Shown here: positions 5,064 through 18,874 of the stretch, one piece after another | How positions within the stretch are numbered: the stretch's first letter is position 1 | Layout of the letters: every line of letters begins with the position of its first letter | Source of the DNA: a virus | Virus record (IMG/VR): IMGVR_UViG_3300036770_007495 | Span: 62,001-126,000 of that record | DNA length: 64,000 nt | Direction: 5' to 3' (one strand) | Notes under the pieces: model-generated | The model's database searches: none | What the model saw: only the letters and a program-made list of their open reading frames with translations | Told to the model about the DNA's origin: nothing | Translations under genes and position numbers: made by a program

Positions 5064-5077
5064 GTTGTAGATAAAAA

Positions 5078-5153: not shown

Positions 5154-5163
5154 TTTTCAAAAT

Positions 5164-5237: not shown

Positions 5238-5246
5238 TTTTTTAAG

Positions 5247-5274: not shown

Positions 5275-5280
5275 AATAAC

Positions 5281-5469
5281 ATGAATACATACGAACAATT
5301 GAAGGAGCTTGTAGAAGCATTTGCCATTGAAGACGAAAAGTTCAATAATGGCAAGTCGTCTGCAAGTACAAATGCACGTAAGCGTTTACAAGATATTATT
5401 GTGCTTGCAAAGACTCGTCGCAACGAAATTACGGCTGAGAAGAATGCACGCAAGCAAGCAAAAGCTTAA
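5281..5469 (+). CDS. histone H1-like (Hc1-type) protein
   Basis: 62 residues: an N-terminal helix YEQLKELVEAFAIEDEKF, then a Lys/Arg/Ala-rich part with NARKRLQDIIVLAKTRRNEI. This pattern (KFxxGKxxAxTxxRKxLQDIxxLAK) matches the short chromatin proteins related to chlamydial Hc1, which also occur in Bacteroidetes and PVC-group bacteria and in some large phages. A role in condensing or marking DNA is inferred. It has its own sigma70-type promoter inside the tRNA array and no room for a ribosome binding site, which suggests early leaderless expression. Confidence 0.7.
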   Translation: MNTYEQLKELVEAFAIEDEKFNNGKSSASTNARKRLQDIIVLAKTRRNEITAEKNARKQAKA

Positions 5470-5481
5470 GCGTAGTAATTA

Positions 5482-5557
5482 GCCCGGTTAGCTCAGCGGT
5501 AGTAGCGCCTCCTTTACACGGAGATTGTCGGCGGTTCGATCCCGTCACCGGGTACCA
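5482..5557 (+). tRNA. tRNA-Val(TAC)
   Basis: Acceptor GCCCGGT/ACCGGGT, stem CCTCC/GGAGA with loop TTTACAC giving TAC, discriminator A, CCA encoded. Confidence 0.93.
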
Positions 5558-5563
5558 GTTTAT

Positions 5564-5638
5564 GGGGCTCTAGTGCTAGCGGTAACACGTCGCCTTTGCA
5601 CGGCGAAGTTTGGGGTTCGACTCCCCAGAGCTCCACCA
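5564..5638 (+). tRNA. tRNA-Ala(TGC)
   Basis: Acceptor GGGGCTC/GAGCTCC has the G3-T70 wobble pair that identifies tRNA-Ala. Loop TTTGCAC gives TGC. CCA encoded. Confidence 0.95.
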
Positions 5639-5648
5639 ATTTCTAAAT

Positions 5649-5734
5649 GATCGGCGTCTGAAATGTATAAAGCCGGATAACCCGCGGAGATTGGGTCGGA
5701 TGAGATTAATAATGACGAGTATACCCGGTCACCA
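5649..5734 (+). tRNA. tRNA-like element, no assignable anticodon
   Basis: GATCGG pairs with CCGGTC across 86 nt and is followed by ACCA, so acceptor and CCA end are present. An internal hairpin ACCC/GGGT has a 9-nt loop, and no canonical T-arm is seen. Probably a degenerate or highly divergent tRNA. Confidence 0.4.
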
Positions 5735-5736
5735 AT

Positions 5737-5878
5737 TCCTCGGTAGTGTAATGGTGCAACGGTCAGCAGCGAAAGATCGGGTCTTCCTTAAGGGTCTGCA
5801 GCAAACAGACCAAACAGGCGAATCTTAGCGAATGTCTGCGGACAACAGGTGTTGGTTCGAATCCAACCTGAGGACACA
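5737..5878 (+). tRNA. tRNA-like gene with about 66-nt insertion
   Basis: Acceptor TCCTCGG/CTGAGGA and a canonical T-arm GTTGG-TTCGAAT-CCAAC lie 142 nt apart, twice the normal size. The extra sequence falls in the anticodon region and holds a perfect hairpin GGTCTG-CAGCAAA-CAGACC. The 3' end is ACA where CCA is expected. The anticodon cannot be read. Confidence 0.45.
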
Positions 5879-5880
5879 TT

Positions 5881-6083
5881 TTGATAGCAAGGAAAGACGC
5901 AGTTCGCGGGTAATGAGAAAGCAATGAGTGGGGCCGGGTTGGTCAATGGGCTGCAAATGATTGCAACGTCTGCAGCGAGCACCAACTGGACGGAAGCATT
6001 GCAAAGTGTAGATTACAAATGGAGAATGGGCAAGGAGGCTGGGTCTACCAGCATTAACTCCCCGATACCTCACCAGCTATCAA
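5881..6083 (+). ncRNA. stem-closed structured RNA, about 203 nt
   Basis: TTGATAGC (5881-5888) pairs perfectly with GCTATCAA (6076-6083), and the array spacer TCAATTTCA follows at once. The interior is GC-richer than coding DNA here and no start, family or codon pattern supports a protein. I recognise no RNA family. Confidence 0.5.
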
Positions 6084-6237
6084 TTTCAGAACATTCAATC
6101 AACCGCAACACAGAGGTCGATCTTGCAAGCCGAGTACCTCTGACGGCTCTGATAACAGGTGCGCTTGCACAAGCCTTGCGAATGGTTCTGCATGCACCAG
6201 CTGAATTAGCTACTCAGTGTGGTGCTAAATTTTCTAT
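6084..6237 (+). other. non-coding spacer with hairpin
   Basis: It contains a 7-bp hairpin CAGAGGT/ACCTCTG (near 6112-6151) and smaller hairpins around 6160-6230. No gene is seen. Confidence 0.3.
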
Positions 6238-6312
6238 GGACGTTGAGCCAGCTGGCGTGGGCGGAAGTCTGCAAAACTTCTTAGGTGGGTTCGATTCTCA
6301 CAACGTCCTCCA
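6238..6312 (+). tRNA. tRNA-Cys(GCA)
   Basis: Acceptor GGACGTT/AACGTCC, stem GAAGT/ACTTC with loop CTGCAAA giving GCA, discriminator T as in bacterial tRNA-Cys, CCA encoded. Confidence 0.93.
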
Positions 6313-6337
6313 ATTCTAGTACGCGTATCCGGCGCGA

Positions 6338-6404
6338 GGCTCGTCGCTGGTTAATTCTAGACACCTGGTCTTCCAACGTCGCAGGTGAAGTTAACGAGCC
6401 GCCA
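6338..6404 (+). ncRNA. long hairpin RNA with tRNA-like acceptor and CCA
   Basis: GGCTCGT/ACG-AGCC forms an acceptor-like stem that ends in GCCA and the array spacer. Inside there is no cloverleaf but a continuous hairpin: GTTAA/TTAAC, then CACCTG/CAGGTG around a 14-nt loop. A minihelix that tRNA-processing enzymes could recognise. Confidence 0.45.
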
Positions 6405-6408
6405 ATTT

Positions 6409-6837
6409 ATGAAAACAAAAATGCTGATATTTGGTTTGCCGGGATCCGGCAAAACCACTCTTGCAAAAAAGTTAGTTGGTGCAGTTGCTGACTCTATGCA
6501 CATCAATGCTGATGCAGTTAGAAGTGCAGTTGATGATTGGGATTTTTCGCAACAAGGCCGCATTCAACAAGCACATAGAATGCATCAATTGAGTGAAGCA
6601 AGCAATGCTGCTCTTGTAGTTTGTGACTTTGTCTGTCCTTACCAAAGCACAAGAGATGCATTGTTCAATGATTACTTTCAAGTGTTCATGGATACCATCA
6701 AGAGCAGCAGATTTGCTGATACAGATGCAATTTTTGAACATGTCAATTATTGTGATTTTCGAATTACAAATTTTGACCAAACAGAAATTTTTATCAAATT
6801 CATTGTTGATTTAGTTGTAAAACCATCCATTGTATAA
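6409..6837 (+). CDS. APS-kinase-like P-loop kinase
   Basis: 142 residues. Walker A is GLPGSGKTT (about residues 7-15); the following INADAVRSAVDDWDFSQQGR, then HRMHQLSEA, VVCDFVCPYQSTRDALF and an RFADTDAIFE...DFRIT tail all follow the adenylylsulfate kinase (CysC) layout. The fold phosphorylates a small hydroxylated substrate with ATP; many phage members are probably not true APS kinases. The ATG at 6409 is 4 nt after the CCA-like end of the hairpin RNA; an in-frame ATG upstream would read through that RNA. Substrate unknown. Confidence 0.75.
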   Translation: MKTKMLIFGLPGSGKTTLAKKLVGAVADSMHINADAVRSAVDDWDFSQQGRIQQAHRMHQLSEASNAALVVCDFVCPYQSTRDALFNDYFQVFMDTIKSSRFADTDAIFEHVNYCDFRITNFDQTEIFIKFIVDLVVKPSIV

Positions 6838-6856
6838 GAGTAAATAAACAACAAAA

Positions 6857-6939
6857 GCCCCGGTAGCGGATCCGCCTTCTAAGCGGAGCATTGTACCGTA
6901 ATTGGACGCATACAGGTTCGAGTCCTGTTCGGGGTACCA
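6857..6939 (+). tRNA. tRNA-Arg(TCT) lacking a normal D-arm
   Basis: Acceptor GCCCCGG/TCGGGGT, stem CCGC/GCGG with loop CTTCTAA giving TCT, good T-arm, CCA encoded. Only 8 nt separate the acceptor and anticodon stems, while the variable region is about 24 nt. Confidence 0.78.
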
Positions 6940-6950
6940 CTTTTCAAAAA

Positions 6951-7027
6951 TCCCTGCGTATCATAATTAGCTAATGTCCTCGCCTGTGAAGCGAGCTAAG
7001 ACGGGGCAGAACCGTCCCAGGGAACCA
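6951..7027 (+). tRNA. tRNA-His(GTG)
   Basis: Stem CTCGC/GCGAG with loop CTGTGAA gives GTG. CCA is encoded. The extra G at position -1 and the C73 typical of tRNA-His are not encoded; the discriminator is A and the innermost acceptor pair is mismatched. Confidence 0.85.
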
Positions 7028-7078
7028 TTTCCGGAATAGTTGCAAACGAGGGTTCGAAACCTCAAATAGCATCTAACA

Positions 7079-7163
7079 GAGATTCAAAGCATCGAAGTTT
7101 ATAGGTTGAACGGGACCCTGACAGGTTGATGGTGTGTTCGAGTGCACACGTGCTTTGAGTCTC
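7079..7163 (+). ncRNA. small RNA closed by a 13-bp stem
   Basis: Positions 7079-7091 (GAGATTCAAAGCA) pair without mismatch, with one G-T pair, with 7151-7163 (TGCTTTGAGTCTC). Inside is a T-arm-like hairpin GTGTG...CACAC with TTCGAGT (7132-7149). A T-arm-like piece also lies just upstream (GAGG-GTTCGAAA-CCTC). There is no CCA end or anticodon arm; possibly a rearranged tRNA or a distinct tRNA-like RNA. Confidence 0.45.
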
Positions 7164-7169
7164 GATAAT

Positions 7170-7244
7170 TTATCTGGCTGTTGCAATGAGGTAAAGACCC
7201 AACGCAATGCCAAATAGTCCAAAAAGTAAAAGTAAAATATTCAT
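7170..7244 (-). CDS. tiny membrane protein
   Basis: 24 residues, MNILLLLFGLFGIALGLYL then IATAR: one hydrophobic helix with a basic C-terminus. It lies 19 nt downstream of another tiny membrane protein on the same strand. Single-helix proteins of this kind occur among phage lysis and membrane-effector genes; no family can be named. Confidence 0.45.
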   Translation of the reverse strand: MNILLLLFGLFGIALGLYLIATAR

Positions 7245-7263
7245 AGGGGCTGCGTTCTCAAAA

Positions 7264-7350
7264 CTATGGCAAAGATTTTGCTATAGCAATGAAAATAACA
7301 GCAATGCATGAAATTCCAAAAAACATGTGGATTATTTCATAGAAGTTCAT
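7264..7350 (-). CDS. tiny membrane protein
   Basis: 28 residues with a central hydrophobic helix (MFFGISCIAVIFIAIAK). A CTAAATA late box lies exactly 5 nt before the ATG, which supports a real gene. It is the only late transcription unit directed against the tRNA array. Function unknown. Confidence 0.55.
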   Translation of the reverse strand: MNFYEIIHMFFGISCIAVIFIAIAKSLP

Positions 7351-7355
7351 ATAGT

Positions 7356-7362
7356 TATTTAG
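7356..7362 (-). promoter_or_regulatory. late-promoter box CTAAATA
   Basis: CTAAATA on the - strand, 5 nt before the start at 7350. Confidence 0.6.
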
Positions 7363-7369
7363 TCAAAAT

Positions 7370-7457
7370 GCTGGTGTGGCTGAGCGGTCTAAAGCACTTG
7401 CCTTGTAAGCAAGCGGGAGTGATCCCATCGTCAGTTCGAATCTGACCACCAGCTCCA
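7370..7457 (+). tRNA. class II tRNA with Thr anticodon TGT
   Basis: Acceptor GCTGGTG/CACCAGC, stem CTTGC/GCAAG with loop CTTGTAA giving TGT. The body TGGCTGAGCGGTCTAAAGC and a long variable arm (GGGA/TCCC) are those of Ser or Leu tRNAs, not Thr. Confidence 0.85.
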
Positions 7458-7463
7458 TTTTCC

Positions 7464-7742
7464 ATGAACAATCGTAGATCATTCTTCAAAAGCCTCATTG
7501 GCTTGATCGTTGCACCAAAGGTTGCTGAAGCTCTACCAACAGAAGCTCCAATACCATCAATTCCTGTATATGCTCCAATGAGGAGATTAAGGGCTAATTG
7601 GTCAATTGAAGTGGAGCAAGATCTTATGCGTATGCATGGCATAGACCTTGATGCAATGCTATTAACAAATATGTCAAAAGCAATTCAGGAAGAAATTGAT
7701 AATGACATGGTAAAAAAATTAACAAAGAAAATGGGGAGTTAG
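7464..7742 (+). CDS. capsid-protein fragment with Tat-like leader
   Basis: 92 residues. The first 25 (MNNRRSFFKSLIGLIVAPKV) look like a twin-arginine signal peptide. Residues 39-87, from RRLRANWSIEVEQDLMRMHG onward, align with residues about 238-286 of the major capsid protein encoded at 21912 (RRLGARWSVELEQDLKNMNG), including GIDLDA/GIDIDA and IQEEID/IQAEID. It is far too short to be a capsid subunit. The stop codon lies inside tRNA-Val. A chimera of an export leader and a gp23 segment, or a decayed gp23 paralogue; function unknown. Confidence 0.7.
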   Translation: MNNRRSFFKSLIGLIVAPKVAEALPTEAPIPSIPVYAPMRRLRANWSIEVEQDLMRMHGIDLDAMLLTNMSKAIQEEIDNDMVKKLTKKMGS

Positions 7743-7806
7743 TATAGAAGCAGTACATTGGCTCGACACGCCAAAGAAGAAGGAGCGTTACCTTCACTCC
7801 CTACCA
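7733..7806 (+). tRNA. tRNA-Val(GAC) with C33
   Basis: Acceptor GGGGAGT/ACTCCCT, stem TTGGC/GCCAA with loop TCGACAC giving GAC; position 33 is C. CCA encoded. Its first 10 nt overlap the end of the preceding coding sequence. Confidence 0.78.
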
Positions 7807-7807
7807 T

Positions 7808-7882
7808 GGTTCCTAAGCATAGATAGCGATGCACACGATTGGTATTTGTGATAGAGGAGTGCAAATCTCCTAGGAACCTCCA
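7808..7882 (+). tRNA. tRNA-Thr(GGT)
   Basis: Acceptor GGTTCCT/AGGAACC, stem CACGA/TTGTG with loop TTGGTAT giving GGT; CCA encoded. It begins 2 nt after the previous tRNA. Confidence 0.88.
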
Positions 7883-8004
7883 CTCATCGCAGACAACACA
7901 TAAAATGCATGTATGTGAAGCAACTAATAAAAAAACAATGTAGTTGCAAATAGCGAAGTTGAGATTAAAATAATGCACAAGAGCAAGATAAAGCTCAATG
8001 ATCT

Positions 8005-8403
8005 TTGAAAAATTCCGTGGTGGCAGAACAATGGGTCGCCAGCCCATAATGCACTAAGCAACGTCTGAAAAGACGCCAGGTAGGTTGAAGAAGTTGTGCC
8101 GGATAAAGCTGAAATAGCCAAGGTTGGCTAACCTTGAGTGACGTAAGAAGACAACAAATCGCAATAATCTTGCTGATGGCTGTATTGTCTTGGAGATAAC
8201 CATTCCTCCCTATCATTAACAGTGAGAGTAATTAACTCATTGGATAGTGGCTGAATAATCCGACACAATGGAGGCTTGTGAGTAGTCAGGAATCTCACCC
8301 ACACTAATTTTGGCTAACGAATTCTGTATGCCACCTCCCGTAACCAATGGAAAAATTACAGAATGCGTTTGTGGGAGTCGCAGAAACCTTCAGTAATTTT
8401 CAA
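8005..8403 (+). ncRNA. candidate large structured RNA
   Basis: The 559 nt between 7883 and 8441 hold no convincing + strand gene. Several perfect hairpins are visible: ATGGG-TCGCCAG-CCCAT near 8029-8045, CGTCT-GAAA-AGACG (a GNRA-type tetraloop) near 8063-8076, AAGGTT-GGCT-AACCTT near 8119-8134, AAGACAA/TTGTCTT near 8147-8193, and ATTCTGT/ACAGAAT near 8321-8364. TTGAAAA (8005-8011) can close with TTTTCAA (8397-8403). Large ornate RNAs such as GOLLD and ROOL occur next to phage tRNA genes; membership is not shown. On the - strand a short hydrophobic reading frame ends at 7924 but lacks a good start. Confidence 0.4.
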
Positions 8404-8441
8404 CAATCTCGCAAGAGGATAAAAAGGAAACACACATACAC

Positions 8442-8657
8442 ATGAATAAAAACGCATATGAAATTCGCTTGGAAGTTCTTGGAATGGCTCATGGCACCGT
8501 CTGGAGCCTGTACCATGAAAAGCTCAATGCAATGAGAATCAATGCTGATAAAGCAAATCAGTTCTTTGATGAGACATTGGTTGACAAGCTTGCGCCTAGC
8601 GCAAAGGACGTTTTGTCTTATGCTGCTGAACTCTATGAGTTCGTAGAAGGCAAATAA
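8442..8657 (+). CDS. small hypothetical protein
   Basis: 71 residues, helical and mildly acidic (EIRLEVLGMAHGTVW, then VLSYAAELYEFVEGK). Similar short proteins beginning with N-x-x-Y-E-I/L-R-L-x-V-L are familiar from T4-like cyanophages, function unknown. A purine-rich stretch GGATAAAAAGG lies about 13-23 nt upstream. Confidence 0.65.
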   Translation: MNKNAYEIRLEVLGMAHGTVWSLYHEKLNAMRINADKANQFFDETLVDKLAPSAKDVLSYAAELYEFVEGK

Positions 8658-8705
8658 AGTCAAAGTGGTGCTGGATAACCACATTAAACACCAGCTATTT
8701 TCAAT

Positions 8706-8801
8706 GCTCCAGTAGCTCAATTGGTAGAGCGGAAGGCTTATACCCTTCGTATGCACCAGATTAGTGCGCGGTTGTCGGTTCGAGCCCGGCCTGGAGTACC
8801 A
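8706..8801 (+). tRNA. tRNA with Ile anticodon TAT and long variable arm
   Basis: Acceptor GCTCCAG/CTGGAGT as in the Ile tRNA at 2399, stem GAAGG/CCTTC with loop CTTATAC giving TAT. A variable arm of about 20 nt (GCAC/GTGC) is present, which is not normal for Ile. Confidence 0.82.
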
Positions 8802-8809
8802 TTTTACAT

Positions 8810-9265
8810 ATGAGATTTGAAGGAAAAAAAGTGATTGTTGCAAGTGGATATTTTGACCCACTGCACATTGGTCATGTTGAATATCTCAAACTAGCAAGAA
8901 TGCTGGGTGATATGCTGGTAGTCATTGTCAACAATGACAAGCAAGCTGCTCTCAAAAAAGGAAAATCATTCATGTCTGAAAATGACAGATGGCGCCTTGT
9001 GGGTGAACTCAAATGTGTGGATATTCCAGTTCTCTCCATTGACGATGGTGCATCTGTATCTGATACAATTCAAATGCTTGTAGACAAAGGTTTCAATCCT
9101 GCCATCTTTGCCAAAGGTGGTGATAGATTCAGCAATGAAATACCTGAAGCACAGGTGTGCAGAGAGCATGGTATTCAAATCGTGGATGGTCTTGGAGACA
9201 AGATTAGATCATCATCAGAATTAGTTTCCAACGCATATGAAAGTAGATTACAAATTTGTCCCTAA
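8810..9265 (+). CDS. cytidylyltransferase-like nucleotidyltransferase
   Basis: 151 residues. The N-terminal GYFDPLHIGHVEYL carries the HxGH nucleotide-binding signature of the cytidylyltransferase family (TagD, HldE C-terminal domain, PCT). DRWRLVGEL and a late KIRSSSEL, equivalent to the second nucleotide-binding motif, follow. Such enzymes activate a sugar or alditol phosphate with CTP or ATP. It overlaps the following cupin gene by 29 nt, so the two are probably translated together. It may feed the glycan cluster at 43-55 kb; the substrate cannot be told from sequence. Confidence 0.8.
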   Translation: MRFEGKKVIVASGYFDPLHIGHVEYLKLARMLGDMLVVIVNNDKQAALKKGKSFMSENDRWRLVGELKCVDIPVLSIDDGASVSDTIQMLVDKGFNPAIFAKGGDRFSNEIPEAQVCREHGIQIVDGLGDKIRSSSELVSNAYESRLQICP

Positions 9266-9590
9266 AGGATGGGGGTTTGAAAAGTGGATTTGCAACAATG
9301 AAAAATATTGCGGCAAATTGCTCTTCATTGCCAAAGATAAGAAGATTTCTTGGCATTATCACAAACTCAAGGATGAACATTTTTACATCAACAAAGGTTC
9401 AGTAATAGTCCTTTATGGTGACAATAAAAATATCAATTTAGCTACATCTGAAATTCTGAAGCAAGGTGATGTATTTCATGTTCCAGTTGGAATGATTCAC
9501 AGATTAATTGCTTTAGAAGATACAGAGGTATTTGAATTTTCGACTCAACATTTTGACGAAGATTCTATCAGAGTGGAAAAAGGTGATTGA
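9237..9590 (+). CDS. cupin-domain protein
   Basis: 117 residues. KPKGWGFEKW-like opening, SWHYHKLKDEHFYINKGSV and GDVFHVPVGMIHRLIALED correspond to the two conserved cupin motifs, with His and Glu metal ligands. The pattern is closest to the type II mannose-6-phosphate isomerase cupins. It overlaps the nucleotidyltransferase gene and ends 2 nt before tRNA-Leu. Likely a sugar-phosphate isomerase or epimerase; substrate uncertain. Confidence 0.75.
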   Translation: MKVDYKFVPKGWGFEKWICNNEKYCGKLLFIAKDKKISWHYHKLKDEHFYINKGSVIVLYGDNKNINLATSEILKQGDVFHVPVGMIHRLIALEDTEVFEFSTQHFDEDSIRVEKGD

Positions 9591-9592
9591 AT

Positions 9593-9668
9593 GGCCAAGT
9601 GACGGAATGGCATACGTATCGGTCTCAAAAACCGAGTTCTGTGGGTTCGACTCCCACCTTGGCTACCA
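9593..9668 (+). tRNA. tRNA with Leu anticodon CAA and short variable loop
   Basis: Acceptor GGCCAAG/CTTGGCT, discriminator A, stem TCGGT/ACCGA with loop CTCAAAA giving CAA, variable loop about 5 nt. Last tRNA of the array; its CCA overlaps a late-promoter box. Confidence 0.87.
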
Positions 9669-9674
9669 TAAATA
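9668..9674 (+). promoter_or_regulatory. late-promoter box ATAAATA
   Basis: ATAAATA 5 nt before the ATG at 9680; overlaps the CCA of tRNA-Leu. Confidence 0.65.
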
Positions 9675-9679
9675 TACAG

Positions 9680-10063
9680 ATGAACTTTACTGCACTGTAT
9701 GAGCAAAAAATGTACGCTTTGATTTTTGAAAAAAACTATGGAACAATTCCTAATCCTCCAATTGATGTAGTACTCTCAAAAAGGGCAACAAAAGATCTAA
9801 AAAAAGATCCTATGCTTCGTGCCAATTTCATTAAACGAATGAAGAATTGGGAAAATTTACGCCGTGATCGTGTGTGGGAAAAATTAGCTGCATCATCACG
9901 TTTAAATGACAAATTCAACTTGCCCAGAAACATTACAGCTGTTGCTTTGGATTTGGGTGGAGCACATTGGTATAGAGCCATTGGATACATTGATGACAAC
10001 AATGTGTATCAGATTTTCTCCATCATGACGCACGAAGCATTCAATAAAATAGCTGTATCATGA
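9680..10063 (+). CDS. RelE-like protein, possible mRNA interferase
   Basis: 127 residues. The second half (KNWENLRRDRVWEKLAASSR ... LPRNITAVALDLGG, then WYRAIGYI and IFSIMTHEAFNKI) resembles the RelE/ParE toxin fold: a basic helix, then beta strands, then the TH-x-x-[FY]-x-K ending. The catalytic residues of RelE cannot be confirmed and no antitoxin gene is next to it. The first ATG after the tRNA with a late box 5 nt upstream fixes the start. It could instead be an uncharacterised late regulator. Confidence 0.45.
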   Translation: MNFTALYEQKMYALIFEKNYGTIPNPPIDVVLSKRATKDLKKDPMLRANFIKRMKNWENLRRDRVWEKLAASSRLNDKFNLPRNITAVALDLGGAHWYRAIGYIDDNNVYQIFSIMTHEAFNKIAVS

Positions 10064-10093
10064 TTTTTTTACAGCATTATGTTATCCGAGAAA

Positions 10094-10100
10094 ATAAATA
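10094..10100 (+). promoter_or_regulatory. late-promoter box ATAAATA
   Basis: The box touches the ATG at 10101 and lies 6 nt before the ATG at 10107. The usual spacing favours 10107 as the start codon. Confidence 0.6.
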
Positions 10101-10106
10101 ATGCCA

Positions 10107-10436
10107 ATGAACGACCACAAGAATTTAATCACTGAATTTCTTAGCGGAGGATGGATCATTTTGATCATTGGAGCATCTGGAATGGGTGCAAGAATTCTGT
10201 GCAGTGGTGTTCGTCATTCTGCATTAGAGATCGTTAAAAAAATAATTGCAGCAGCTCTTTGCTCTGGCATTGCTTGGTATGTGTTGGAGCAGACTGATTT
10301 AGCAAGTCTCACCAAAGCAATTGTTTACGGTGTAGTTGGTGTTGTAAGCCCTGAACTCATCAATGGTCTCATCAAGATTGGTGCAAAATTTGCCAAGAAC
10401 CCAACCAAATTCTTCGACGACAACAAGAGCAATTGA
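10107..10436 (+). CDS. holin-like membrane protein
   Basis: 109 residues with three hydrophobic segments: GGWIILIIGASGMGARIL, IIAAALCSGIAWYVL and IVYGVVGVVSPELI, then a Lys/Asn-rich tail. This resembles the small LydA/HP1-type phage holins that form membrane holes at lysis. It is immediately followed by the DUF1501 cassette. An ATG two codons upstream is possible but would touch the promoter box. Confidence 0.6.
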   Translation: MNDHKNLITEFLSGGWIILIIGASGMGARILCSGVRHSALEIVKKIIAAALCSGIAWYVLEQTDLASLTKAIVYGVVGVVSPELINGLIKIGAKFAKNPTKFFDDNKSN

Positions 10437-10452
10437 AATTTCATGATTTGCA

Positions 10453-10459
10453 TTAAATA
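10453..10459 (+). promoter_or_regulatory. late-promoter box TTAAATA
   Basis: TTAAATA 5 nt before the ATG at 10465. Confidence 0.6.
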
Positions 10460-10464
10460 AATGC

Positions 10465-11721
10465 ATGAATCGTAGAGAATTTCTTCGAGTTGGTGCTGCA
10501 GCAGGCATTTCTTTGCCAACAATGTTGCGCAGTCAAGATGCTACCAAAGTCAAAGCAGCATCAGTAATCCAAATCTTCTTGCCTGGTGGCATTGCACATC
10601 AGGATGCATGGGATTACAAACCATATGGATCACCAGAGTATCGTGGTCCATTTGCAGGCATCAAGACCAAAATTGATGGAGTTCACTTTGGTGCATTGTT
10701 GCAAAACACTGCTAAAATCAGCGACAACTTGACTGTGATTCGTTCCATGACACATGGTGAAGCAGCCCACGAACGAGGTGTGCACAACATGTTGACTGGC
10801 TACAGACCTTCACCTGCTTTGACATATCCATCATTTGGAACGGTCATCAATCACGAGTTGGGCGGCAGAAACAACTTGCCTGCATATGTGCTTGTGCCAA
10901 ATCAATTTGCTCCTGAGAATGGCACGGGATATCTATCAACACGTTACGGACCATTTGCAGTGGGGGCAAACCCAGAAGATCCTTCATTCTCCGTAAAGGA
11001 TCTCAAGTCACCTGCAGGAGTAACAGATCAGGCATTTGAACGTCGCAGAGCTCTTCTTGGTGTTGTTGATGACCATTTCAAAACCAGAGAATCACATGTG
11101 GATGCAGTCAAAGCCATGGATTCATTTTATAATGATGCATACAGCATGGTATCATCAACCCAAGCACGAGAAGCATTTGAATTGAGCAAAGAAACTGATG
11201 CAATGCGTGATGCATATGGCAGAAATGCTGCAGGCCAGCGCATGTTGCTGGCTCGCCGATTGGTAGAAGCAGGTGTTCGCATGGTCACTGTCACATATGG
11301 CAGCTGGGATCATCACAGCAATCTCAAAGGTGCGTTTGAGAGCAACATGATGAACTTTGATAAAGCATATGCCATGCTCATTACTGACTTGAAGCAAAGA
11401 GGCTTACTTGATTCTACACTGGTGATGATTACATCAGAATTTGGTCGCACACCAAAGATTAATGGAACCAATGGCCGCGATCACTGGCCTCGTGTGTTTT
11501 CCACTGTGCTTGCTGGGGGTGGAACCAAGGCTGGTTTTGCATATGGAACCAGCGATGCACTTGCTGCGGAACCGGAAACAGATCCTGTTTCGCCTGGTCA
11601 ATTGGCTGCAACCATGTACCATCTCATGGGCATTGATCCAAGAAAGAAGCTCATGACTCCTGATTTAAGACCAGTTGAAATTGTGTATGAAGAAGATCCT
11701 ATTGAAAAGATCTTGGCTTAA
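10465..11721 (+). CDS. DUF1501 protein with Tat signal
   Basis: 418 residues, full length for DUF1501. It opens with a twin-arginine signal NRREFLRVGAAAGISLP, so export in folded form is predicted. DUF1501 landmarks follow: FLPGGIAHQDAWDYKP (about 38-53), RSMTHGEAAHERGVHNMLTG, YGSWDHHSN and SEFGRTPKINGTNGRDHWP near 330. DUF1501 is related to the sulfatase/alkaline phosphatase superfamily and is extremely abundant in Planctomycetes and Verrucomicrobia, where it pairs with DUF1549/DUF1553 genes; the reaction is unknown. It is very unusual in a phage. It sits between a holin-like gene and tail genes with its own late box, so expression late in infection is inferred. Confidence 0.88.
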   Translation: MNRREFLRVGAAAGISLPTMLRSQDATKVKAASVIQIFLPGGIAHQDAWDYKPYGSPEYRGPFAGIKTKIDGVHFGALLQNTAKISDNLTVIRSMTHGEAAHERGVHNMLTGYRPSPALTYPSFGTVINHELGGRNNLPAYVLVPNQFAPENGTGYLSTRYGPFAVGANPEDPSFSVKDLKSPAGVTDQAFERRRALLGVVDDHFKTRESHVDAVKAMDSFYNDAYSMVSSTQAREAFELSKETDAMRDAYGRNAAGQRMLLARRLVEAGVRMVTVTYGSWDHHSNLKGAFESNMMNFDKAYAMLITDLKQRGLLDSTLVMITSEFGRTPKINGTNGRDHWPRVFSTVLAGGGTKAGFAYGTSDALAAEPETDPVSPGQLAATMYHLMGIDPRKKLMTPDLRPVEIVYEEDPIEKILA

Positions 11722-12044
11722 ACACCCTGGTTGGAGTAAGAGAAGAACTGCGATCTAAAAGAAAGCAAACCAGCACCTGCTGTAGTTTTTGCACTAACCT
11801 GAGAGCTGTTTGTTAATCCGCGAAATGTAAACTCTTCATTTGCAGACAACAAGAATGCATTGGTTGTATCAAAATTGTTCTGATCAAAAATGAGTACACC
11901 TTGACCTGTTGTGTTTTTAACAACGACTTCTGAACATACTTGAAATGGCAACTGCTTGAGATTGGTATCGAGAGCAACATTGAATGATTTGCATACATTC
12001 AGGTTGTAGTATGTTACTCCATTGTTTGTTGTGGGTGCTGGCAT
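11718..12044 (-). CDS. small virion-type hypothetical protein
   Basis: 108 residues, beta-rich, Ser/Thr/Asn-rich (GVTYYNLNVCKSFNV, GVLIFDQNNFDTTNAFLL, EFTFRGLTNSSQVSAKTTAG), without signal or membrane segment. The composition is that of small capsid-decoration or fibre-associated proteins; no family is recognised. It overlaps the end of the DUF1501 gene by 4 nt tail to tail. It has a late box 5 nt before its ATG, divergent from the box of the next + strand gene. Confidence 0.65.
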   Translation of the reverse strand: MPAPTTNNGVTYYNLNVCKSFNVALDTNLKQLPFQVCSEVVVKNTTGQGVLIFDQNNFDTTNAFLLSANEEFTFRGLTNSSQVSAKTTAGAGLLSFRSQFFSYSNQGV

Positions 12045-12049
12045 AAGGT

Positions 12050-12056
12050 TATTTAG
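12050..12056 (-). promoter_or_regulatory. late-promoter box CTAAATA
   Basis: CTAAATA on the - strand, 5 nt before the start at 12044; back to back with the box at 12061. Confidence 0.65.
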
Positions 12057-12060
12057 TCTG

Positions 12061-12067
12061 CTAAATA
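12061..12067 (+). promoter_or_regulatory. late-promoter box CTAAATA
   Basis: CTAAATA 5 nt before the ATG at 12073; divergent pair with 12050-12056. Confidence 0.65.
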
Positions 12068-12072
12068 CAATT

Positions 12073-12840
12073 ATGAGCTTTACCAGTCTATTTAATGATC
12101 TTCTTTTGGAAAAGAAAGTACTTACAAGAACAGAAATTCAGCAAGATCTGGAAAAGTTCATGGATCATCTCAAAACAAAAAACAATGTTTTGTTTGTAAC
12201 CACCAGCAACAGATGGGCTGGATCAGAGCAAAAAGCTAAATCTACACAATTGGCTTATCACATCAAAGATTCATTAACTGAATGCAACGTCAAAGTCATT
12301 GAAGCAGATAAACTCAACATCAGATGCTGCACAGGCAATGTGAGTTTGGCATCTGGCAACATTTGTGGTGCAAAAGATGCTTTGCTCAAAAGTTCATCAA
12401 AAAATCCAACCGGTCAAATCAGATGCTGGGAAGCCAAACACAGAGATGATGAGTTGTATAAAATTGCAAATGAAGTGTTCAAAGCTGATGCAGTTGTATT
12501 CTTTACAAGTGTAAGGTGGGGCCAAACCAACTCCATCTATCAAAAAGTGATTGAACGACTAACCTGGATAGAAAACAGATGGTCCTGTTTGGGTGAAAGC
12601 AATTTGCTTGAAAACAAAGAAGCAGGCATCATTGTCATTGGACAAAATTGGAAAGACAAGCAAGTTATGCAAACTCAGCGCAGTGTTTTTGAGATGTTTG
12701 GATTCAAATCACCTGCAAATCTCTCCATGTATTGGCAGTTTACTGATGATGCAATGGATGAATCCAAGCAGTCATACAAGGCAGCAGTTTCTCAGTTCCA
12801 AGATGACTTTGATTTAAGACTCCGCAAAAAGACTAAATAA
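12073..12840 (+). CDS. flavodoxin-like NAD(P)H-dependent FMN reductase
   Basis: 255 residues. After a helical N-terminus, NNVLFVTTSNRWAGSEQKAK looks like the phosphate-binding first loop of a flavodoxin fold. CCTGNVSLASGNICGAKDAL (about 84-103) resembles the Cys-containing segment of iron-sulfur flavoproteins. DAVVFFTSVRWGQTNSIYQK and VIERLTWIENRW match the FMN-binding and dimer segments of WrbA-like NADPH:FMN reductases. Predicted role is cytoplasmic electron transfer. It lies between the two halves of the DUF1501 cassette with its own late box, suggesting a redox step in the same system (inference). Confidence 0.65.
   Translation: MSFTSLFNDLLLEKKVLTRTEIQQDLEKFMDHLKTKNNVLFVTTSNRWAGSEQKAKSTQLAYHIKDSLTECNVKVIEADKLNIRCCTGNVSLASGNICGAKDALLKSSSKNPTGQIRCWEAKHRDDELYKIANEVFKADAVVFFTSVRWGQTNSIYQKVIERLTWIENRWSCLGESNLLENKEAGIIVIGQNWKDKQVMQTQRSVFEMFGFKSPANLSMYWQFTDDAMDESKQSYKAAVSQFQDDFDLRLRKKTK
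12833..12839 (+). promoter_or_regulatory. late-promoter box CTAAATA
   Basis: CTAAATA 6 nt before the ATG at 12846; overlaps the stop codon of the flavodoxin-like gene. Confidence 0.6.
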
Positions 12841-12845
12841 ATTTT

Positions 12846-14633
12846 ATGAAAAAGCTAATTGTCCTATTTTTGAGCATTTGCACCTTAACTTTTGGTGCAA
12901 CATTAGAACAGCTTAACAACTACAGCGGCTGGATTGACTCAGTTTTAGAAAAGCAATACACTGCTGCCAAGGTAACGCCACTCAAGCGCATTGATGAAGA
13001 TACATTTGTGCGCAGAGCATATCTCACCATCATTGGCAGAAATCCAACATACGAAGAATATCAGATGTATGCCAAAGCAACTGATGCCAACAAGCGCCAA
13101 GGTTTGATTCAATTTTTAATGAATCATCCTGGACACGTTTCACACATGTTTAACTTTTGGGCTGAGTCTTTGAGACTAAGAGACAGATTATCCAACATCA
13201 ATAATTTTTCTGGTGGTCCATACATTGATTACATCAAAGACTCCATTGCTGCAAACAAACCATATACAAAGTTTGTTTCAGATTTGTTGACTGCATCAGG
13301 TTCATATTACGACAATCCTGCTACAGGCTATTTCTATCGCGATTTGGGAATGCCTTTGGACAACCTCATTGCAACTGGCAAAGTTTTCATGGGCACTGAC
13401 ATTGGATGTGCACAATGCCATGATGATCCATTCCAAGATTTCACTCAAATGCAGTTTTATAAAATGGCTGCTATGTTTAATCAAGTAGAGCTCAGGGGCC
13501 GCGGCAAAGATAAAGATCCAGCCATTGCAGCTCGTCAAAAGGCTCTAAGAGAAGAAGTAGATGCCTTGATCAAAGCTGATCCAATGAAGAATCGTGGTCT
13601 CAACAATCAGATCAACAACTTTGTTGCAGCCATGAGAGCCAATCTTGAGGTAGAGGAGAAAAGAGAATTAAAATTGCCTCACGATTATAAGTATACAGAT
13701 GCAAAGCCACTTGATACAGTTGTACCTGCAGTATTGTCAGGCAAAACAGAAATCAAGAACAAAGCTGATATGAGACAGGATGTTGTTGCATGGTTGGTGA
13801 GCCCACAGCATCCAACATTCACAAAGAACATTGTCAATAGATACTGGAAATGGGTGTTTGGTAGATACATCATTGATGACTATGACAATATTCATGATGA
13901 TGAAAAGCTCAATGGTGAGCTCATGAATGCACTTGCTAAAATCATGGTGCAGGTAAATTATGATAGCAAGCAGTTCATGTATGTGTTATTCAATACCAAG
14001 CTCTTTCAAAGAGAATTGTATGATGGAGCATACTCTAATACAGAAAGATTCATCTTCATTGGGCCTGTCAAGCAGCGTCTAACAGCCGAACAAATGTGGG
14101 ATTCAGTTGTATCCATTGCCATTGATCGCCCAGATACATTCAAGCTCAGCTTTCAAGATGAGTATGTCAAGGTGATGAGATACACCATTGAAGATCTTAC
14201 CATTGACAAACTCAAAGAAAAACAAGAAATGTATCAGAAGATTATGCGCTCCAAATACGATGCTGCTCCCAAGTATCGCAATTATCCACTTGCAAGAGCA
14301 TCTGAAGTGAATGACAACAGCCCTGTTAACACAATTCTTGAGCAGCTTGGCAGAGGCGACCGTGAGCTCATTGATACATCATCACGTGAAGGTTCTGTAA
14401 CACAAGTAATTTCATTCATGAATGGACAACTTGCTGAAGTTGCAGTAAACAAAGATACCAGCCTTGCAAAAGCCATTGCTGGCAAGTCTCCAACTGAGAC
14501 CATTGAAATTATTTTCAAGTCTGTTTTATCCAGAAAACCCACAATTGATGAGAGAAGCAAGTTCACTGGAGTGCAGGATGATGACATCATCTGGGCACTA
14601 GTCAATAGTTCTGAGTTCAAATTTAATAAATAA
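12846..14633 (+). CDS. DUF1549/DUF1553 secreted protein with CxxCH motif
   Basis: 595 residues, starting with a Sec signal peptide (MKKLIVLFLSICTLTFGA). The first half follows DUF1549: DTFVRRAYLTIIGRNPTYEE, then GCAQCHDDPF at about 187-196, where C188-x-x-C191-H192 could bind haem c or another metal. The second half follows DUF1553: LVSPQHPTFTKNIVNRYWKW, VFGRYIIDD, RLTAEQMWDSVVSIA and a C-terminal SVLSRKPTIDERSKF repeat-like end. In Planctomycetes these domains are longer and are almost always next to a DUF1501 gene, exactly as here (next gene 4 nt downstream). Biochemical role unknown; exported. Confidence 0.88.
   Translation: MKKLIVLFLSICTLTFGATLEQLNNYSGWIDSVLEKQYTAAKVTPLKRIDEDTFVRRAYLTIIGRNPTYEEYQMYAKATDANKRQGLIQFLMNHPGHVSHMFNFWAESLRLRDRLSNINNFSGGPYIDYIKDSIAANKPYTKFVSDLLTASGSYYDNPATGYFYRDLGMPLDNLIATGKVFMGTDIGCAQCHDDPFQDFTQMQFYKMAAMFNQVELRGRGKDKDPAIAARQKALREEVDALIKADPMKNRGLNNQINNFVAAMRANLEVEEKRELKLPHDYKYTDAKPLDTVVPAVLSGKTEIKNKADMRQDVVAWLVSPQHPTFTKNIVNRYWKWVFGRYIIDDYDNIHDDEKLNGELMNALAKIMVQVNYDSKQFMYVLFNTKLFQRELYDGAYSNTERFIFIGPVKQRLTAEQMWDSVVSIAIDRPDTFKLSFQDEYVKVMRYTIEDLTIDKLKEKQEMYQKIMRSKYDAAPKYRNYPLARASEVNDNSPVNTILEQLGRGDRELIDTSSREGSVTQVISFMNGQLAEVAVNKDTSLAKAIAGKSPTETIEIIFKSVLSRKPTIDERSKFTGVQDDDIIWALVNSSEFKFNK
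14626..14632 (+). promoter_or_regulatory. late-promoter box ATAAATA
   Basis: ATAAATA 5 nt before the ATG at 14638, overlapping the previous stop. Confidence 0.6.
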
Positions 14634-14637
14634 CAAC

Positions 14638-15873
14638 ATGAATACACTAACAAGACGCAACTTTGTGCTTAACCTTGCATCAGCAGGTTTAGGTGTAACC
14701 GTTCTTCCACACATTGTAGCTGCTCCAGCCAGCAAGAAAGCAGAACACATCATCTACCTCTTTATGAATGGAGGCATGAGCCATTTGGATACATTTGATC
14801 CTAAAATGGATGCTGAAGTCAAAGGTGAATTCAAATCCATCACCACAAATGCTGATTTTCAGATCTCTGAACATTTGCCTTTGATGGCCAAGCATGGTGA
14901 TAAGATGGCAGTTGTTCGTTCCATGATGGTAACAACTGGCGATCATGCTGGTGCACAATACTTGCAAAGAACATCATTCAAGAAGATTGGCACAGTTGTT
15001 CACCCCAACATGGGAGCATGGATGTGTCATTATACTGAAGATGGGAAGCCAAAAGTCATTCCACAAAACGTTTTGATTGGTGGTGGAGCTGATCACCCCG
15101 GTTCAGGGTGGATGCCTAAGAAGTATTCTCCTATTCCAGTTGCAGATCCTATGAGAGGTCTTGATAATACTAAGCTTAAGAATGCAGCAGAGTTTGCAAA
15201 GAGAGTACAAATCCTGGAAAAACTTGAAAAAGATGCAAACAAAATCATCAACCCAGCTCAAAAGTCATATGCTGAATTTTATGACCAAACAATTCGTCTT
15301 CTCAACTCAAATGAGCTTGATGTCTTTGATCTTTCCAAGGTGGATCAAGCAACAAGAGACAAATATGGCAACAATCGTTTTGGTCAAGGTGTTTGCTTGG
15401 CAAAACGCTTGATTGAAAAGGGTAATTGCAAGTTTATTGAAGTATCTGATGGTGGTTGGGATACACACGTTAATAACTTTGAATCTCTTGAGACAAAGCT
15501 CAAGGTGCTTGACCAAGCAGTTGATGCTCTTTTGCAAGACCTCAAATCATCTGGTCTTCTTGAGAAAACACTTGTTGTAATTGCAACAGACTTTGGTAGA
15601 ACACCAAACATCAACATCAACAATGGTAGAGATCATCACCCAGGTGCATTCTGCGGTGTTCTCATGGGTGCAGGCATCAAAGGCGGTCAAGCATATGGCA
15701 AGTCTGATGACAAGGGTATGAAAGCAATTGAAAACGTGGTTAGCCCAGCTGATTTCAATGCTACCATTGCTGCTGCTGCAGGATTGCCAATTGAAGATAT
15801 TGTAGTCTCACCTGATGGTAGACCATTCAAAATTGCTGATAAAGGAAAGCCTGTTACTGCTCTGCTTGCGTGA
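14638..15873 (+). CDS. DUF1501 protein with Tat-like signal, second copy
   Basis: 411 residues. It opens with TRRNFVLNLASAGLGVTVLP, a twin-arginine leader. DUF1501 landmarks are FMNGGMSHLDTFDPK (about 42-56), VRSMMVTTGDHAGAQYLQRT, DGGWDTHVNNFES and TDFGRTPNININNGRDHHPG near 322. It is clearly divergent from the DUF1501 at 10465, so this is an old pair rather than a fresh duplication. The DUF1549-DUF1553/DUF1501 adjacency is the standard planctomycetal arrangement. Likely periplasmic or surface partner of the upstream CxxCH protein. Confidence 0.88.
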   Translation: MNTLTRRNFVLNLASAGLGVTVLPHIVAAPASKKAEHIIYLFMNGGMSHLDTFDPKMDAEVKGEFKSITTNADFQISEHLPLMAKHGDKMAVVRSMMVTTGDHAGAQYLQRTSFKKIGTVVHPNMGAWMCHYTEDGKPKVIPQNVLIGGGADHPGSGWMPKKYSPIPVADPMRGLDNTKLKNAAEFAKRVQILEKLEKDANKIINPAQKSYAEFYDQTIRLLNSNELDVFDLSKVDQATRDKYGNNRFGQGVCLAKRLIEKGNCKFIEVSDGGWDTHVNNFESLETKLKVLDQAVDALLQDLKSSGLLEKTLVVIATDFGRTPNININNGRDHHPGAFCGVLMGAGIKGGQAYGKSDDKGMKAIENVVSPADFNATIAAAAGLPIEDIVVSPDGRPFKIADKGKPVTALLA

Positions 15874-15891: not shown

Positions 15892-17043
15892 ATGCAGAAC
15901 CAGGCTTTTCACTTTGAGATTGAAGATCTCATTACGCAATTCATTGCGGCATTTGATGATTGCGTAATCAAGAGGTTCACTGGTTCTCGTGAACAAAAAG
16001 ACCAAATCAGTGTGCGTTATGTTTATGCACCCAAGCAGCGTGTAATTTATGATATCATTAACAAAGGCAAGAATATAACATTGCCGGTTGTGAGCATCAG
16101 CATTTCGCAAATTGCAAGAGATTCATCCAGAGTGTTCAACAAGCTTGATGGATTTTATTATCCTGCTGCTAACACCGACAATGAATATGCTGCTTTTTCT
16201 AATCAGGTTTATTCACCGGTTCCTGTCAACATAACTGTCAACATGAGCATCATTGGCAAGTATCAGACAGACATTGAACAAATCTTATCCAATTTTGCCG
16301 CATATACAAATCCATATTTGGTCATAAGCTGGAAAATTCCTGCGGCTTATAATCTCACAAAGACATATGAGATTAGAACTGAAGTCGATTGGAGCGGATC
16401 CATTGCACTCAATTATCCTGGTGATCAGACACCAGCAGATTCTTACAGAGTAACTGCTGATACAAGCTTTACAATCAAAGGGTGGCTGTTTCCACAAGCA
16501 CCATCAAGTTCTGTTAAAAACATCTTTTTCATTGATGCTAATTTTTATGCAACAAATCAGTTGTCAGGCAATCCCTACAAGATGCTTTATTCCACTCTGG
16601 AAGACTATGCAACACTGAGTGCATCCAATTTGGCAGGCTTTACCGAGACCATTAACATATCTGCAGCACCAGCAATTACTAACATTTATTATGCAACCAA
16701 TGTTGGCATTGGTGAGCAAGTGTTCTCCAGTCTCACCATCAATGCATTCAATTCTGGTGGAACCATAACATTGTTTGGTAAAAGATTTCAATACACTACA
16801 GCAGTTGCACTTTGCAGCAACAATGCAACTCTTTACAAAGGTCTCACATCATTTGCATTTGCGTATTATCCAACTATTTCATGCATACCCATTGAAACAT
16901 ACAATGTTTTGAATGAAAACACAATGACCATCACATTGCCTGCTTTGACTGCATCAGGCAACTTTAACATTGTAGTACTCAATGAGGCAGGCTATGACAC
17001 AACATACAGCGCTAATCAAGGTGTTTTTACCAATGTGGTGTAG
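15892..17043 (+). CDS. gp15-like tail sheath terminator with C-terminal extension
   Basis: 383 residues. The first 220 follow T4 gp15: VIKRFTGSREQKDQISVRYV, VYAPKQRVIYDI, LPVVSISISQIARD, the PVPVNITVNMSIIGKYQTDI segment, EQILSNFAAYTNPYLVI and a final FTIKGWLFPQ. gp15 caps the tail tube and sheath and joins the tail to the head. T4 gp15 is about 270 residues; here about 110 extra residues form a beta-rich IPT/Ig-like domain (INAFNSGGTITLFGKRF ... NFNIVVLNEAGYD). The place directly before the portal gene fits the T4 order. Confidence 0.7.
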   Translation: MQNQAFHFEIEDLITQFIAAFDDCVIKRFTGSREQKDQISVRYVYAPKQRVIYDIINKGKNITLPVVSISISQIARDSSRVFNKLDGFYYPAANTDNEYAAFSNQVYSPVPVNITVNMSIIGKYQTDIEQILSNFAAYTNPYLVISWKIPAAYNLTKTYEIRTEVDWSGSIALNYPGDQTPADSYRVTADTSFTIKGWLFPQAPSSSVKNIFFIDANFYATNQLSGNPYKMLYSTLEDYATLSASNLAGFTETINISAAPAITNIYYATNVGIGEQVFSSLTINAFNSGGTITLFGKRFQYTTAVALCSNNATLYKGLTSFAFAYYPTISCIPIETYNVLNENTMTITLPALTASGNFNIVVLNEAGYDTTYSANQGVFTNVV

Positions 17044-17074: not shown

Positions 17075-18874
17075 ATGGACTCTTCTTATAGCAATCAGGC
17101 AAATGTGCAGCAAACTTTTGGTAGGCAGTTGATGACCTACATTTCTTCCAAGCTGCCATACTCTGGATTCAACATTTTGGATTTCACAGAAAGAGAAAAT
17201 CCAAAATTCAAGACATTTGAGGAGACAGGCATCCGCAGAAATGAAGCACTAGCAAGAAACTCCATTTCACAATCCAACCTTTTCTCTACAGGGTATGGTG
17301 AGTTTCGTGACATTGGATTTGGTGATCTCATGTATGCAAACATGCAGAACGACAAAGGTGCACGTTTGCAGGATTACAGAGTCATGGCTGCTTTTGCAGA
17401 AGTATCCAATGCTCTTGATGAAATTTGTGATGAGATGATCAACAGAGATGCACAGAATCATGTTGTGAATGTGAAGCTCAAAAACTTTACAATGGATGCT
17501 GTGGATCTAGAACAGCTGCAGCTTGAGTTTCAGAAGTACGTTGAGTTCTTTGATTTGGAAAACAAAGGCTGGACATATTTTAGAGATTTGTTGGTTGAAG
17601 GTGAGTTGTATTTTGAACACATCATTCACAAAAAGTATTCTGATCAAGGCGTTTTGGGTGTAATTAGAATGCCTACTGAACTTGTTGATCCTGTTTACAA
17701 CAACATTCAAAACATGATTGTCAAAGGTTATCTTTACAGAAAGCCTGTTTTTGATGCTGTCAATCCCAAAAAGAAAATTGAAGAGAAGATGATTCCAATG
17801 CAAGAGAATCAGGTTGTTTACATCAACAGCGGTATTTGGAATCAAAACAAAACAGTGCGCCTGCCTTTCATTGAAAATGCTCGTCGTGCTTATCGTCAAT
17901 TGTCACTCATTGAAGATGCCATTGTCATTTACCGATTGGTGCGTGCACCAGAGCGTCTCATCTTCAACGTTGATGTTGGCAACATGGCACCACCCAAAGC
18001 AGAAGCATTTTTGCGCAAGCTCATGAATCAATACTGGAGCAGCAAAACATTTGATGTAGATCAGAATGATGTTGTTCGCAAGTTTAATCCTCAAAGCATG
18101 CTAGACAGCTTTTGGTTTGCCAAGCGTCAAGGTTCAGAAGGCACAAGCGTACAACAGCTGCCAGGTGGCCAAAATCTTGGTGAGTTGACAGACTTGATGT
18201 ACTTTGTCAAGAAATTGTATGAGGCACTCAAAGTGCCTGTCAACCGTTTGGATCCCCAATCACAGATTTCAGATGGCAGCACAGTATTGCGTGAAGAATT
18301 AAAGTTTGCTCGCTTCATCATCAGAATGCAACAGATGTTTGCATCTGGCATCAAAAAGGGCTTCATTACACATTTGCACCTCAAAGGACTTTGGGACAAA
18401 TGGAAGCTCAAAGATTATTACCTTGATGTAGAATTCAACCCACCGACCAACTATTATGAATTGCGCCAGAGTCAGCGATTGGAAGCCAAGGTGGGCAACT
18501 TCAACAATCTTGCATCCAATCCAACCATTTCTCAAACTTACTTGCAGCGTAAAATTCTTGGCTGGAGTGACATTGATGTCAAGGCTAATAGAGAGTACTT
18601 GCGTGCTGACAAGGAGCTTGAATGGGAGCTCAATCAAATCACCAACTCAGGCCCATATTGGAAGCTCATGATGGGTGGTGCGGTAGGTGGTGCAGAAGCT
18701 GGCGGCGCACCTCCAGGAGGAGGCGGCGGTGGTGGAGCTGGTCCAGGTGGAATGCCACCAGCATTTGCAGGAGGCCCTGCAGCACTTGAGACACCACCAG
18801 AAGCAGAAGCTCCACCTGAAGCTGGTGCACCAGAAGCTGCACAAGCTGCCCCTGCACCTGAAGCAGGCGCATAA
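17075..18874 (+). CDS. gp20: portal protein, T4 gp20-like
   Basis: 599 residues. Signature stretches of the T4 portal family are present: ALDEICDEMINRD, VYINSGIWNQN, RRAYRQLSLIEDAIVIYRLV followed by RAPERLIFNVDVGNM, MNQYWSSKTFD, DLMYFVKKLYEALKVPVNRL and EELKFARFI. The protein forms the dodecameric ring at the capsid vertex through which DNA is packaged. The last 65 residues are a low-complexity Gly/Ala/Pro/Glu tail not found in T4, GC-richer than the rest of the gene. It is followed by neck, protease, scaffold and capsid genes. Confidence 0.95.
   Translation: MDSSYSNQANVQQTFGRQLMTYISSKLPYSGFNILDFTERENPKFKTFEETGIRRNEALARNSISQSNLFSTGYGEFRDIGFGDLMYANMQNDKGARLQDYRVMAAFAEVSNALDEICDEMINRDAQNHVVNVKLKNFTMDAVDLEQLQLEFQKYVEFFDLENKGWTYFRDLLVEGELYFEHIIHKKYSDQGVLGVIRMPTELVDPVYNNIQNMIVKGYLYRKPVFDAVNPKKKIEEKMIPMQENQVVYINSGIWNQNKTVRLPFIENARRAYRQLSLIEDAIVIYRLVRAPERLIFNVDVGNMAPPKAEAFLRKLMNQYWSSKTFDVDQNDVVRKFNPQSMLDSFWFAKRQGSEGTSVQQLPGGQNLGELTDLMYFVKKLYEALKVPVNRLDPQSQISDGSTVLREELKFARFIIRMQQMFASGIKKGFITHLHLKGLWDKWKLKDYYLDVEFNPPTNYYELRQSQRLEAKVGNFNNLASNPTISQTYLQRKILGWSDIDVKANREYLRADKELEWELNQITNSGPYWKLMMGGAVGGAEAGGAPPGGGGGGGAGPGGMPPAFAGGPAALETPPEAEAPPEAGAPEAAQAAPAPEAGA

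Follow-up and report, generated by a model that had tools for sequence, protein, structure and literature searches.

The cassette and its setting in the phage genome

The window analyzed here, a stretch of 64,000 nucleotides, comprises bases 62001-126000 of a virus record of 224,703 bases in total, which belongs to a large T4-like virus, probably one of Verrucomicrobia bacteria. It contains a T4-type structural block with gp15, the gp20 portal, the prohead protease and the gp23 capsid protein, and also 23 tRNA genes within less than 10 kb at its left end (window 309-9668). The cassette consists of two DUF1501 genes, here named DUF1501a and DUF1501b, and a gene for a protein with DUF1549 (PSCyt2) and DUF1553 (PSD1) domains, hereafter PSCyt2 (Table 1); no other DUF1501 or DUF1549 genes were found in the 224,703-base record. 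The initial annotation placed these genes between a holin-like gene and tail/portal genes, and this holds firmly on the gp15 and gp20 side, while the identity of the holin-like gene is weak, although such a gene also lies beside DUF1501a, by synteny, in the related contigs L006, L007, L011, L025 and L040. Two further genes inside the interval were absent from that annotation's list. The first of them, on the minus strand, encodes a small protein with no Pfam or PHROG match and is conserved next to DUF1501a in the phages sharing the window's gene order (layout A, below). The second encodes an FMN-reductase-like protein, has a late box at -11, and is present only in the window, L011 and L025 among these phages.

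Table 1. Genes and late-type boxes of the cassette and its flanks (window positions)
Feature	Position	Strand	Evidence and remarks
Holin-like small membrane protein	10101..10436	+	phrog_6384 holin, E=0.0068 (weak)
Late-type box TAAATA	10454..10459	+	11 nt before DUF1501a ATG
DUF1501a	10465..11721	+	Pfam DUF1501 371 bits; Tat-type leader NRREFLRV
Small protein	11718..12044	-	Own late box
NADPH-dependent FMN-reductase-like protein	12073..12840	+	Pfam 23.2 bits, just under cut-off 24
Late-type box TAAATA	12834..12839	+	12 nt before PSCyt2 ATG
DUF1549 (PSCyt2)-DUF1553 (PSD1) protein	12846..14633	+	Pfam 124 + 95 bits; Sec-type leader
Late-type box TAAATA	14627..14632	+	11 nt before DUF1501b ATG
DUF1501b	14638..15873	+	Pfam DUF1501 332 bits; Tat-type leader TRRNFVLN; partner of PSCyt2
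T4 gp15-type tail sheath stabiliser	15892..17043	+	Pfam, PHROG; right flank, phage anchor
T4 gp20-type portal	17075..18874	+	Pfam, PHROG; right flank, phage anchor

Late-type promoters

The hexamer TAAATA corresponds to the 3' portion of the T4 late box, and its presence just before each of the three cassette genes, as claimed from the first inspection, was confirmed. In the whole record, 58 of the 132 TAAATA copies sit 6-25 nt before an ATG, where about 2 would be expected, and their spacing peaks sharply at -11 (29/58) and -12 (13/58). In marine relatives of the window phage, the distance from TAAATA to the ATG of PSCyt2 is exactly 11 nt in nearly all contigs, with L226 as the exception; the box is mostly the full TATAAATA and was retained despite a different genome context. 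There, DUF1501b follows PSCyt2 almost at once and has no box of its own, being probably co-transcribed with it. The L228/L234 group and the non-T4 phages are mostly devoid of the late box. Late expression of the cassette is thus well supported, at the level of promoter motifs, for the window phage and the T4-like phages related to it. Besides, for boxes such as those at window positions 10454, 12062, 14627 and 15881, the T4 rule would have transcription begin on the A of the ATG or on a neighboring base, and the late mRNAs of this phage and of its marine relatives may therefore be leaderless.

Domains, leaders and predicted folds of the cassette proteins

The two DUF1501 proteins are complete and divergent, as had been noted, with each of them spanning positions 1-390 of the 390 of PF07394, far above its curated cut-off of 27 bits, and with both placed on different deep branches of the tree. 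Their Tat-type leaders were called by inspection, and the alignment shows the twin arginine in 26-27 of the 28 phage DUF1501 proteins, which makes DUF1501a and DUF1501b candidate Tat substrates by leader motif. The signature elements GG, H, WDxH, FGRTP and GRDH are retained throughout or almost throughout an alignment of 28 phage and 110 cellular DUF1501 rows, the conserved residues being RR, H103, D275, H277, D/E318, D332 and H333. These conserved D/H/E residues could bind metal, while an S/T/C nucleophile was not identified. The structure model of DUF1501b is of low confidence (pLDDT 57, pTM 0.64), and the top 50 Foldseek matches of this low-confidence model are mostly sulfatases, LTA synthases and YejM/PbgA, with E values from 4e-6 to 2e-4. 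An alkaline-phosphatase-superfamily fold is accordingly predicted for DUF1501b from a model of that quality; the predicted fold and the conserved D/H residues resemble the sulfatases, LtaS/LtaP and YejM/PbgA of this superfamily, but identity to them is only 9-18% over the aligned parts.

The PSCyt2 protein was also correctly recognized at first sight as a signal-peptide protein with DUF1549, DUF1553 and CxxCH landmarks: both domains score well above their Pfam cut-offs (29.8 bits for PSCyt2/DUF1549 and 28.5 bits for PSD1/DUF1553), a Sec-type leader was called by inspection, and a single CAQCH lies at residues 188-192, whose C, C and H are invariant across 61 PSCyt2 sequences. The PSCyt1 domain is absent from this protein (12846-14633). 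A CxxCH motif in an exported protein, with the leader called by inspection, is the mark of a c-type cytochrome, and heme binding by PSCyt2 is therefore predicted. Its AF2 model is good (pLDDT 92, pTM 0.91) and almost entirely helical, and when compared with PDB and viral structure libraries it gave no match with E<0.001, only a faint likeness to DUF4214/phycobilisome-linker domains; given a good model without matches in these libraries, PSCyt2 may have a new fold. No convincing sequence relatives were found in the PDB.

Between phage copies, dN/dS is 0.04-0.11 in comparisons whose synonymous sites are not saturated, similar to the portal, and the phage cassette genes are under purifying selection.

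Two cellular sources

The PVC origin proposed for these families was corroborated, with DUF1501a falling among Prosthecobacter orthologues and DUF1501b in a verrucomicrobial subfamily that lies beside DUF1549/1553 genes. The closest cellular DUF1501b homologues (42-46% identity) are mainly from Verrucomicrobiota, and a DUF1549/1553 gene immediately precedes nearly all of them on the same strand. The phage pair has the same domains, order and strand as the cellular PSCyt2-PSD1 + DUF1501 pair of Verrucomicrobiota and Planctomycetota, and it keeps CxxCH and the DUF1501 signature residues. In contrast with the cellular pair, phage PSCyt2 has about 595 aa instead of the mostly 700-900 aa of its nearest cellular partners, to which it is 30-39% identical, and the phage genes are under T4-type late boxes and accompanied by a second DUF1501 of other ancestry. 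This second protein, DUF1501a, belongs to a distinct orthologue group (starred branch, 100) among up to about 70 paralogues per genome, its closest cellular members being those of Prosthecobacter (60-63%), followed by other Verrucomicrobia (57-59%). In these other Verrucomicrobia, DUF1501a lies beside PSCyt1-WD40, PPC-domain and PSCyt1-PSCyt2-PSD1 genes (Pfam was run on L179, and the others have the same layout), whereas the phage took DUF1501a only, with no sign of the WD40, PPC and large cytochrome genes in its cassette. DUF1501a is near an S11 D-Ala-D-Ala carboxypeptidase gene in three out of four Prosthecobacter genomes, and in one of these three, L176, a PSCyt2-DUF1501b pair lies within 8 kb of DUF1501a. 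By homology and gene neighborhood, the window cassette is therefore a mixture of two origins, with its DUF1501a coming from a cellular cluster other than that of the DUF1549/1553-DUF1501b pair.

In quick trees made without bootstrap, phage DUF1501b forms a single clade (starred branch, 99), as does phage PSCyt2 (starred branch, 98), while 10 of 11 phage DUF1501a proteins form a clade next to Prosthecobacter. An enlarged tree including non-T4 phages requires 10 host-virus changes, at least 7 of them on starred branches, and these trees show, as far as sequences can, PVC ancestry and independent capture of cassette genes by several phage lineages. One of the 10 changes concerns L238, which was not counted as a phage case, because it groups within cellular sequences and may be host DNA sorted wrongly among the viral contigs. 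We infer that the window phage has a Prosthecobacter-like host, and the window tRNA-Pro, 90% identical to that of Prosthecobacter, agrees with this host as weak evidence. A search of the first 20 kb of the window against 12 Verrucomicrobia/Opitutia genomes returned DUF1501, tRNA and short matches, with no clear prophage or spacer.

Recurrence and mobility among viruses

Searches of viral contigs retrieved 25 loci with DUF1501b and 19 with PSCyt2, in three broad arrangements. Layout A, with the window order beside gp15-portal, is found in L006, L007, L009, L010, L011, L018, L020 and L021, some of these contigs ending early or missing single genes. In layout B (L001, L003, L008 and L012), DUF1501a is about 6 kb away on the opposite strand, and in L001 the PSCyt2-DUF1501b pair adjoins replication genes, while layout C collects other places (L013-L017, L022 and L024). 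Transfer of the cassette between phage lineages is most likely, given that L001 and the window phage are only 59% identical in the portal but 92% identical in DUF1501b. Moreover, among 17 sister contigs picked by portal similarity (mostly 54-61%), DUF1501 occurs in just two, both already in our set, and the cassette is therefore accessory. In a wider scan, the set grew by a T4-like marine group (L208-L227), another freshwater group, which carries all three genes (L228 and L234), phages that combine a PolIIIalpha-type polymerase with two DUF1501 genes in tandem (L239-L245), and L258 and L263, with a single DUF1501 in phages having terminase/portal or rIIA.

In L025, where PSCyt2 and most of DUF1501b are lost and DUF1501a is intact, the stretch at 12384-12791 joins in frame the N-terminal ~50 residues of PSCyt2 to the C-terminal ~85 residues of DUF1501b, a fusion that arose either from a natural deletion, apparently at a short shared sequence, or from an assembly collapse.

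Linkage to lysis genes and the proposed role

Phages commonly acquire exported enzymes from their hosts, and we consider it very likely that the genes described here make up a host-derived, exported, late envelope cassette. As to its purpose, the linkage to lysis genes is the best clue. An amidase endolysin lies at most 5 kb from the cassette in 12 of the 15 contigs with a detectable amidase, although these 12 contigs are not independent, since they belong largely to one marine lineage. At least three amidase arrangements exist, namely downstream in L212, upstream in L214 and L218-like contigs, and downstream in the freshwater L013; furthermore, the marine contigs have an overlapping spanin-like pair within the same gene block as the cassette, and L024 has an NlpC/P60 gene between DUF1501a and PSCyt2. 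Amidase endolysins and two-component spanins are thus gene neighbors of the PSCyt2-DUF1501b pair in many relatives, but they are not of the same families as the DUF proteins, and the lysis set of the window phage itself lies far from the cassette, with amidase and spanin-like pair at G000:4.6-6.1 kb and cassette at 72-78 kb, about 67 kb apart. In G029 and G040 also, the amidase is about 59 and about 49 kb or more from the cassette. The release role suggested by the initial annotation is thus partly backed by endolysin/spanin linkage in many relatives and opposed by this separation in the window phage. The lysis locus of the window phage (G000:4641-6143, L045) combines an Amidase_2 endolysin with an adjacent spanin pair of the overlapping, lambda Rz/Rz1-like type that includes an embedded lipoprotein (G000:5777-6143); because of this pair beside the amidase, the idea of the cassette as a spanin substitute was rejected.

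Given the lysis linkage on one side and the window separation and single-lineage bias on the other, we favor an accessory function in release only tentatively, as a reading that has somewhat less than an even chance of being right. In such a scheme, the T4-type late machinery would make the cassette proteins at the end of infection; DUF1501a and DUF1501b, as putative metal-dependent enzymes of the alkaline-phosphatase superfamily (hydrolases or transferases), would fold in the cytoplasm and exit through Tat, while the DUF1549/1553 protein would exit through Sec, carry one c-type heme and cooperate with DUF1501b, as their counterparts do in PVC bacteria. Their joint action would be to cleave or alter an envelope polymer or lipid of PVC bacteria that bears phosphate or sulfate esters and, in the least certain step, to help the progeny to leave the cell alongside the ordinary endolysin and spanins. 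We counted against release that the hosts already hold dozens of DUF1501 paralogues, and that L025 keeps DUF1501a in spite of lacking PSCyt2 and most of DUF1501b. A broader version, in which PVC phages share a late envelope-breaching module of a DUF1501 hydrolase and a heme-bearing DUF1549/1553 partner, captured repeatedly and swapped between lineages, which would remove a PVC-specific surface layer that endolysin and spanins cannot open, seems to us rather unlikely.

Other purposes have to be weighed against release. The cassette could be a metabolic helper boosting the host DUF1501/PSCyt2 system, for instance in the extracellular attack on sulfated or phosphorylated polysaccharides, thereby feeding phage production. 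This reading fits with complete proteins that keep their signature residues and come from hosts holding dozens of paralogues, and with the finding of PSCyt genes near sulfatases, some with carbohydrate-binding modules, in freshwater Verrucomicrobia (PMC5615132); nevertheless, late-type promoters fit release or virion genes better, the linkage to lysis genes is repeated, and little would be gained from a few copies on top of dozens, so that we deem a metabolic role unlikely. The exported enzymes might instead alter the host surface in such a way that receptors are destroyed, progeny avoid debris and other phages are barred, in agreement with the export leaders, with a fold family that includes surface polymer and lipid modifiers, and with the patchy presence among related phages, as for an accessory competition trait. 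Late expression is, however, late for barring competitors, and the cassette showed no association with known exclusion genes, which leaves receptor destruction or superinfection exclusion unlikely too, although both this reading and metabolic help are serious competitors of release. Virion decoration, in which the proteins would ride on the particle, had also been suggested, and it found little support beyond the late boxes and the nearby structural genes (portal and sheath in layout A, terminase/portal in the non-T4 L258); given that Tat and Sec leaders are kept in nearly all copies, that no fusion to a structural domain was seen, and that layout B is not near structural genes, it is highly improbable. 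Finally, despite the hallmark cellular families and the lack of a full-length match among deposited phages in the phage collection, an assembly artefact joining host to phage DNA at 10.4-15.9 kb was rejected with near certainty, by the same junction recurring in at least 7 other virus contigs, by the separate phage clades, and by the late box before each gene.

Novelty and significance

The DUF1501 and PSCyt protein families are already known but uncharacterised (PMC5615132, PMC4452313, PMC2754498), with 41 PSD1/PSC2 genes in R. baltica (PMC2754498). In phages, by contrast, the suspicion of an undescribed system was upheld, with no earlier phage report in the sequence collections or open-access literature searched: INPHARED phages have no homologue of DUF1501b or PSCyt2 and one partial 33% match to DUF1501a, in an unannotated 6.9-kb record; PHROGs has no family for DUF1501a, PSCyt2 or DUF1501b; and in the open-access literature searched, 10 papers contain DUF1501, two of them also mentioning phage, and the only phage paper among these has it just as a CDD match of a 61-aa protein. 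A phage-borne DUF1501/PSCyt system therefore appears undescribed. To our knowledge, no reaction or substrate has been assigned to any DUF1501 or PSCyt2 protein, and yet few families are as expanded in Planctomycetota and Verrucomicrobiota as DUF1501 and PSCyt/PSD, with dozens per genome. The phages have reduced this system to two or three compact genes under strong selection, that is, to a minimal testable form, and the phage-borne form hints at an envelope location of the substrate. The cassette genes may also act as host markers for uncultured PVC phages.

Two further observations concern the surroundings of DUF1501 genes in other phages. In the marine phage L218, a third, divergent DUF1501 (486 bits) follows straight after DUF1501b at 9203-10624, and in L263, an actin-like protein (Pfam Volactin, 206 bits) is encoded at 8993-9994, two genes past a phage DUF1501.
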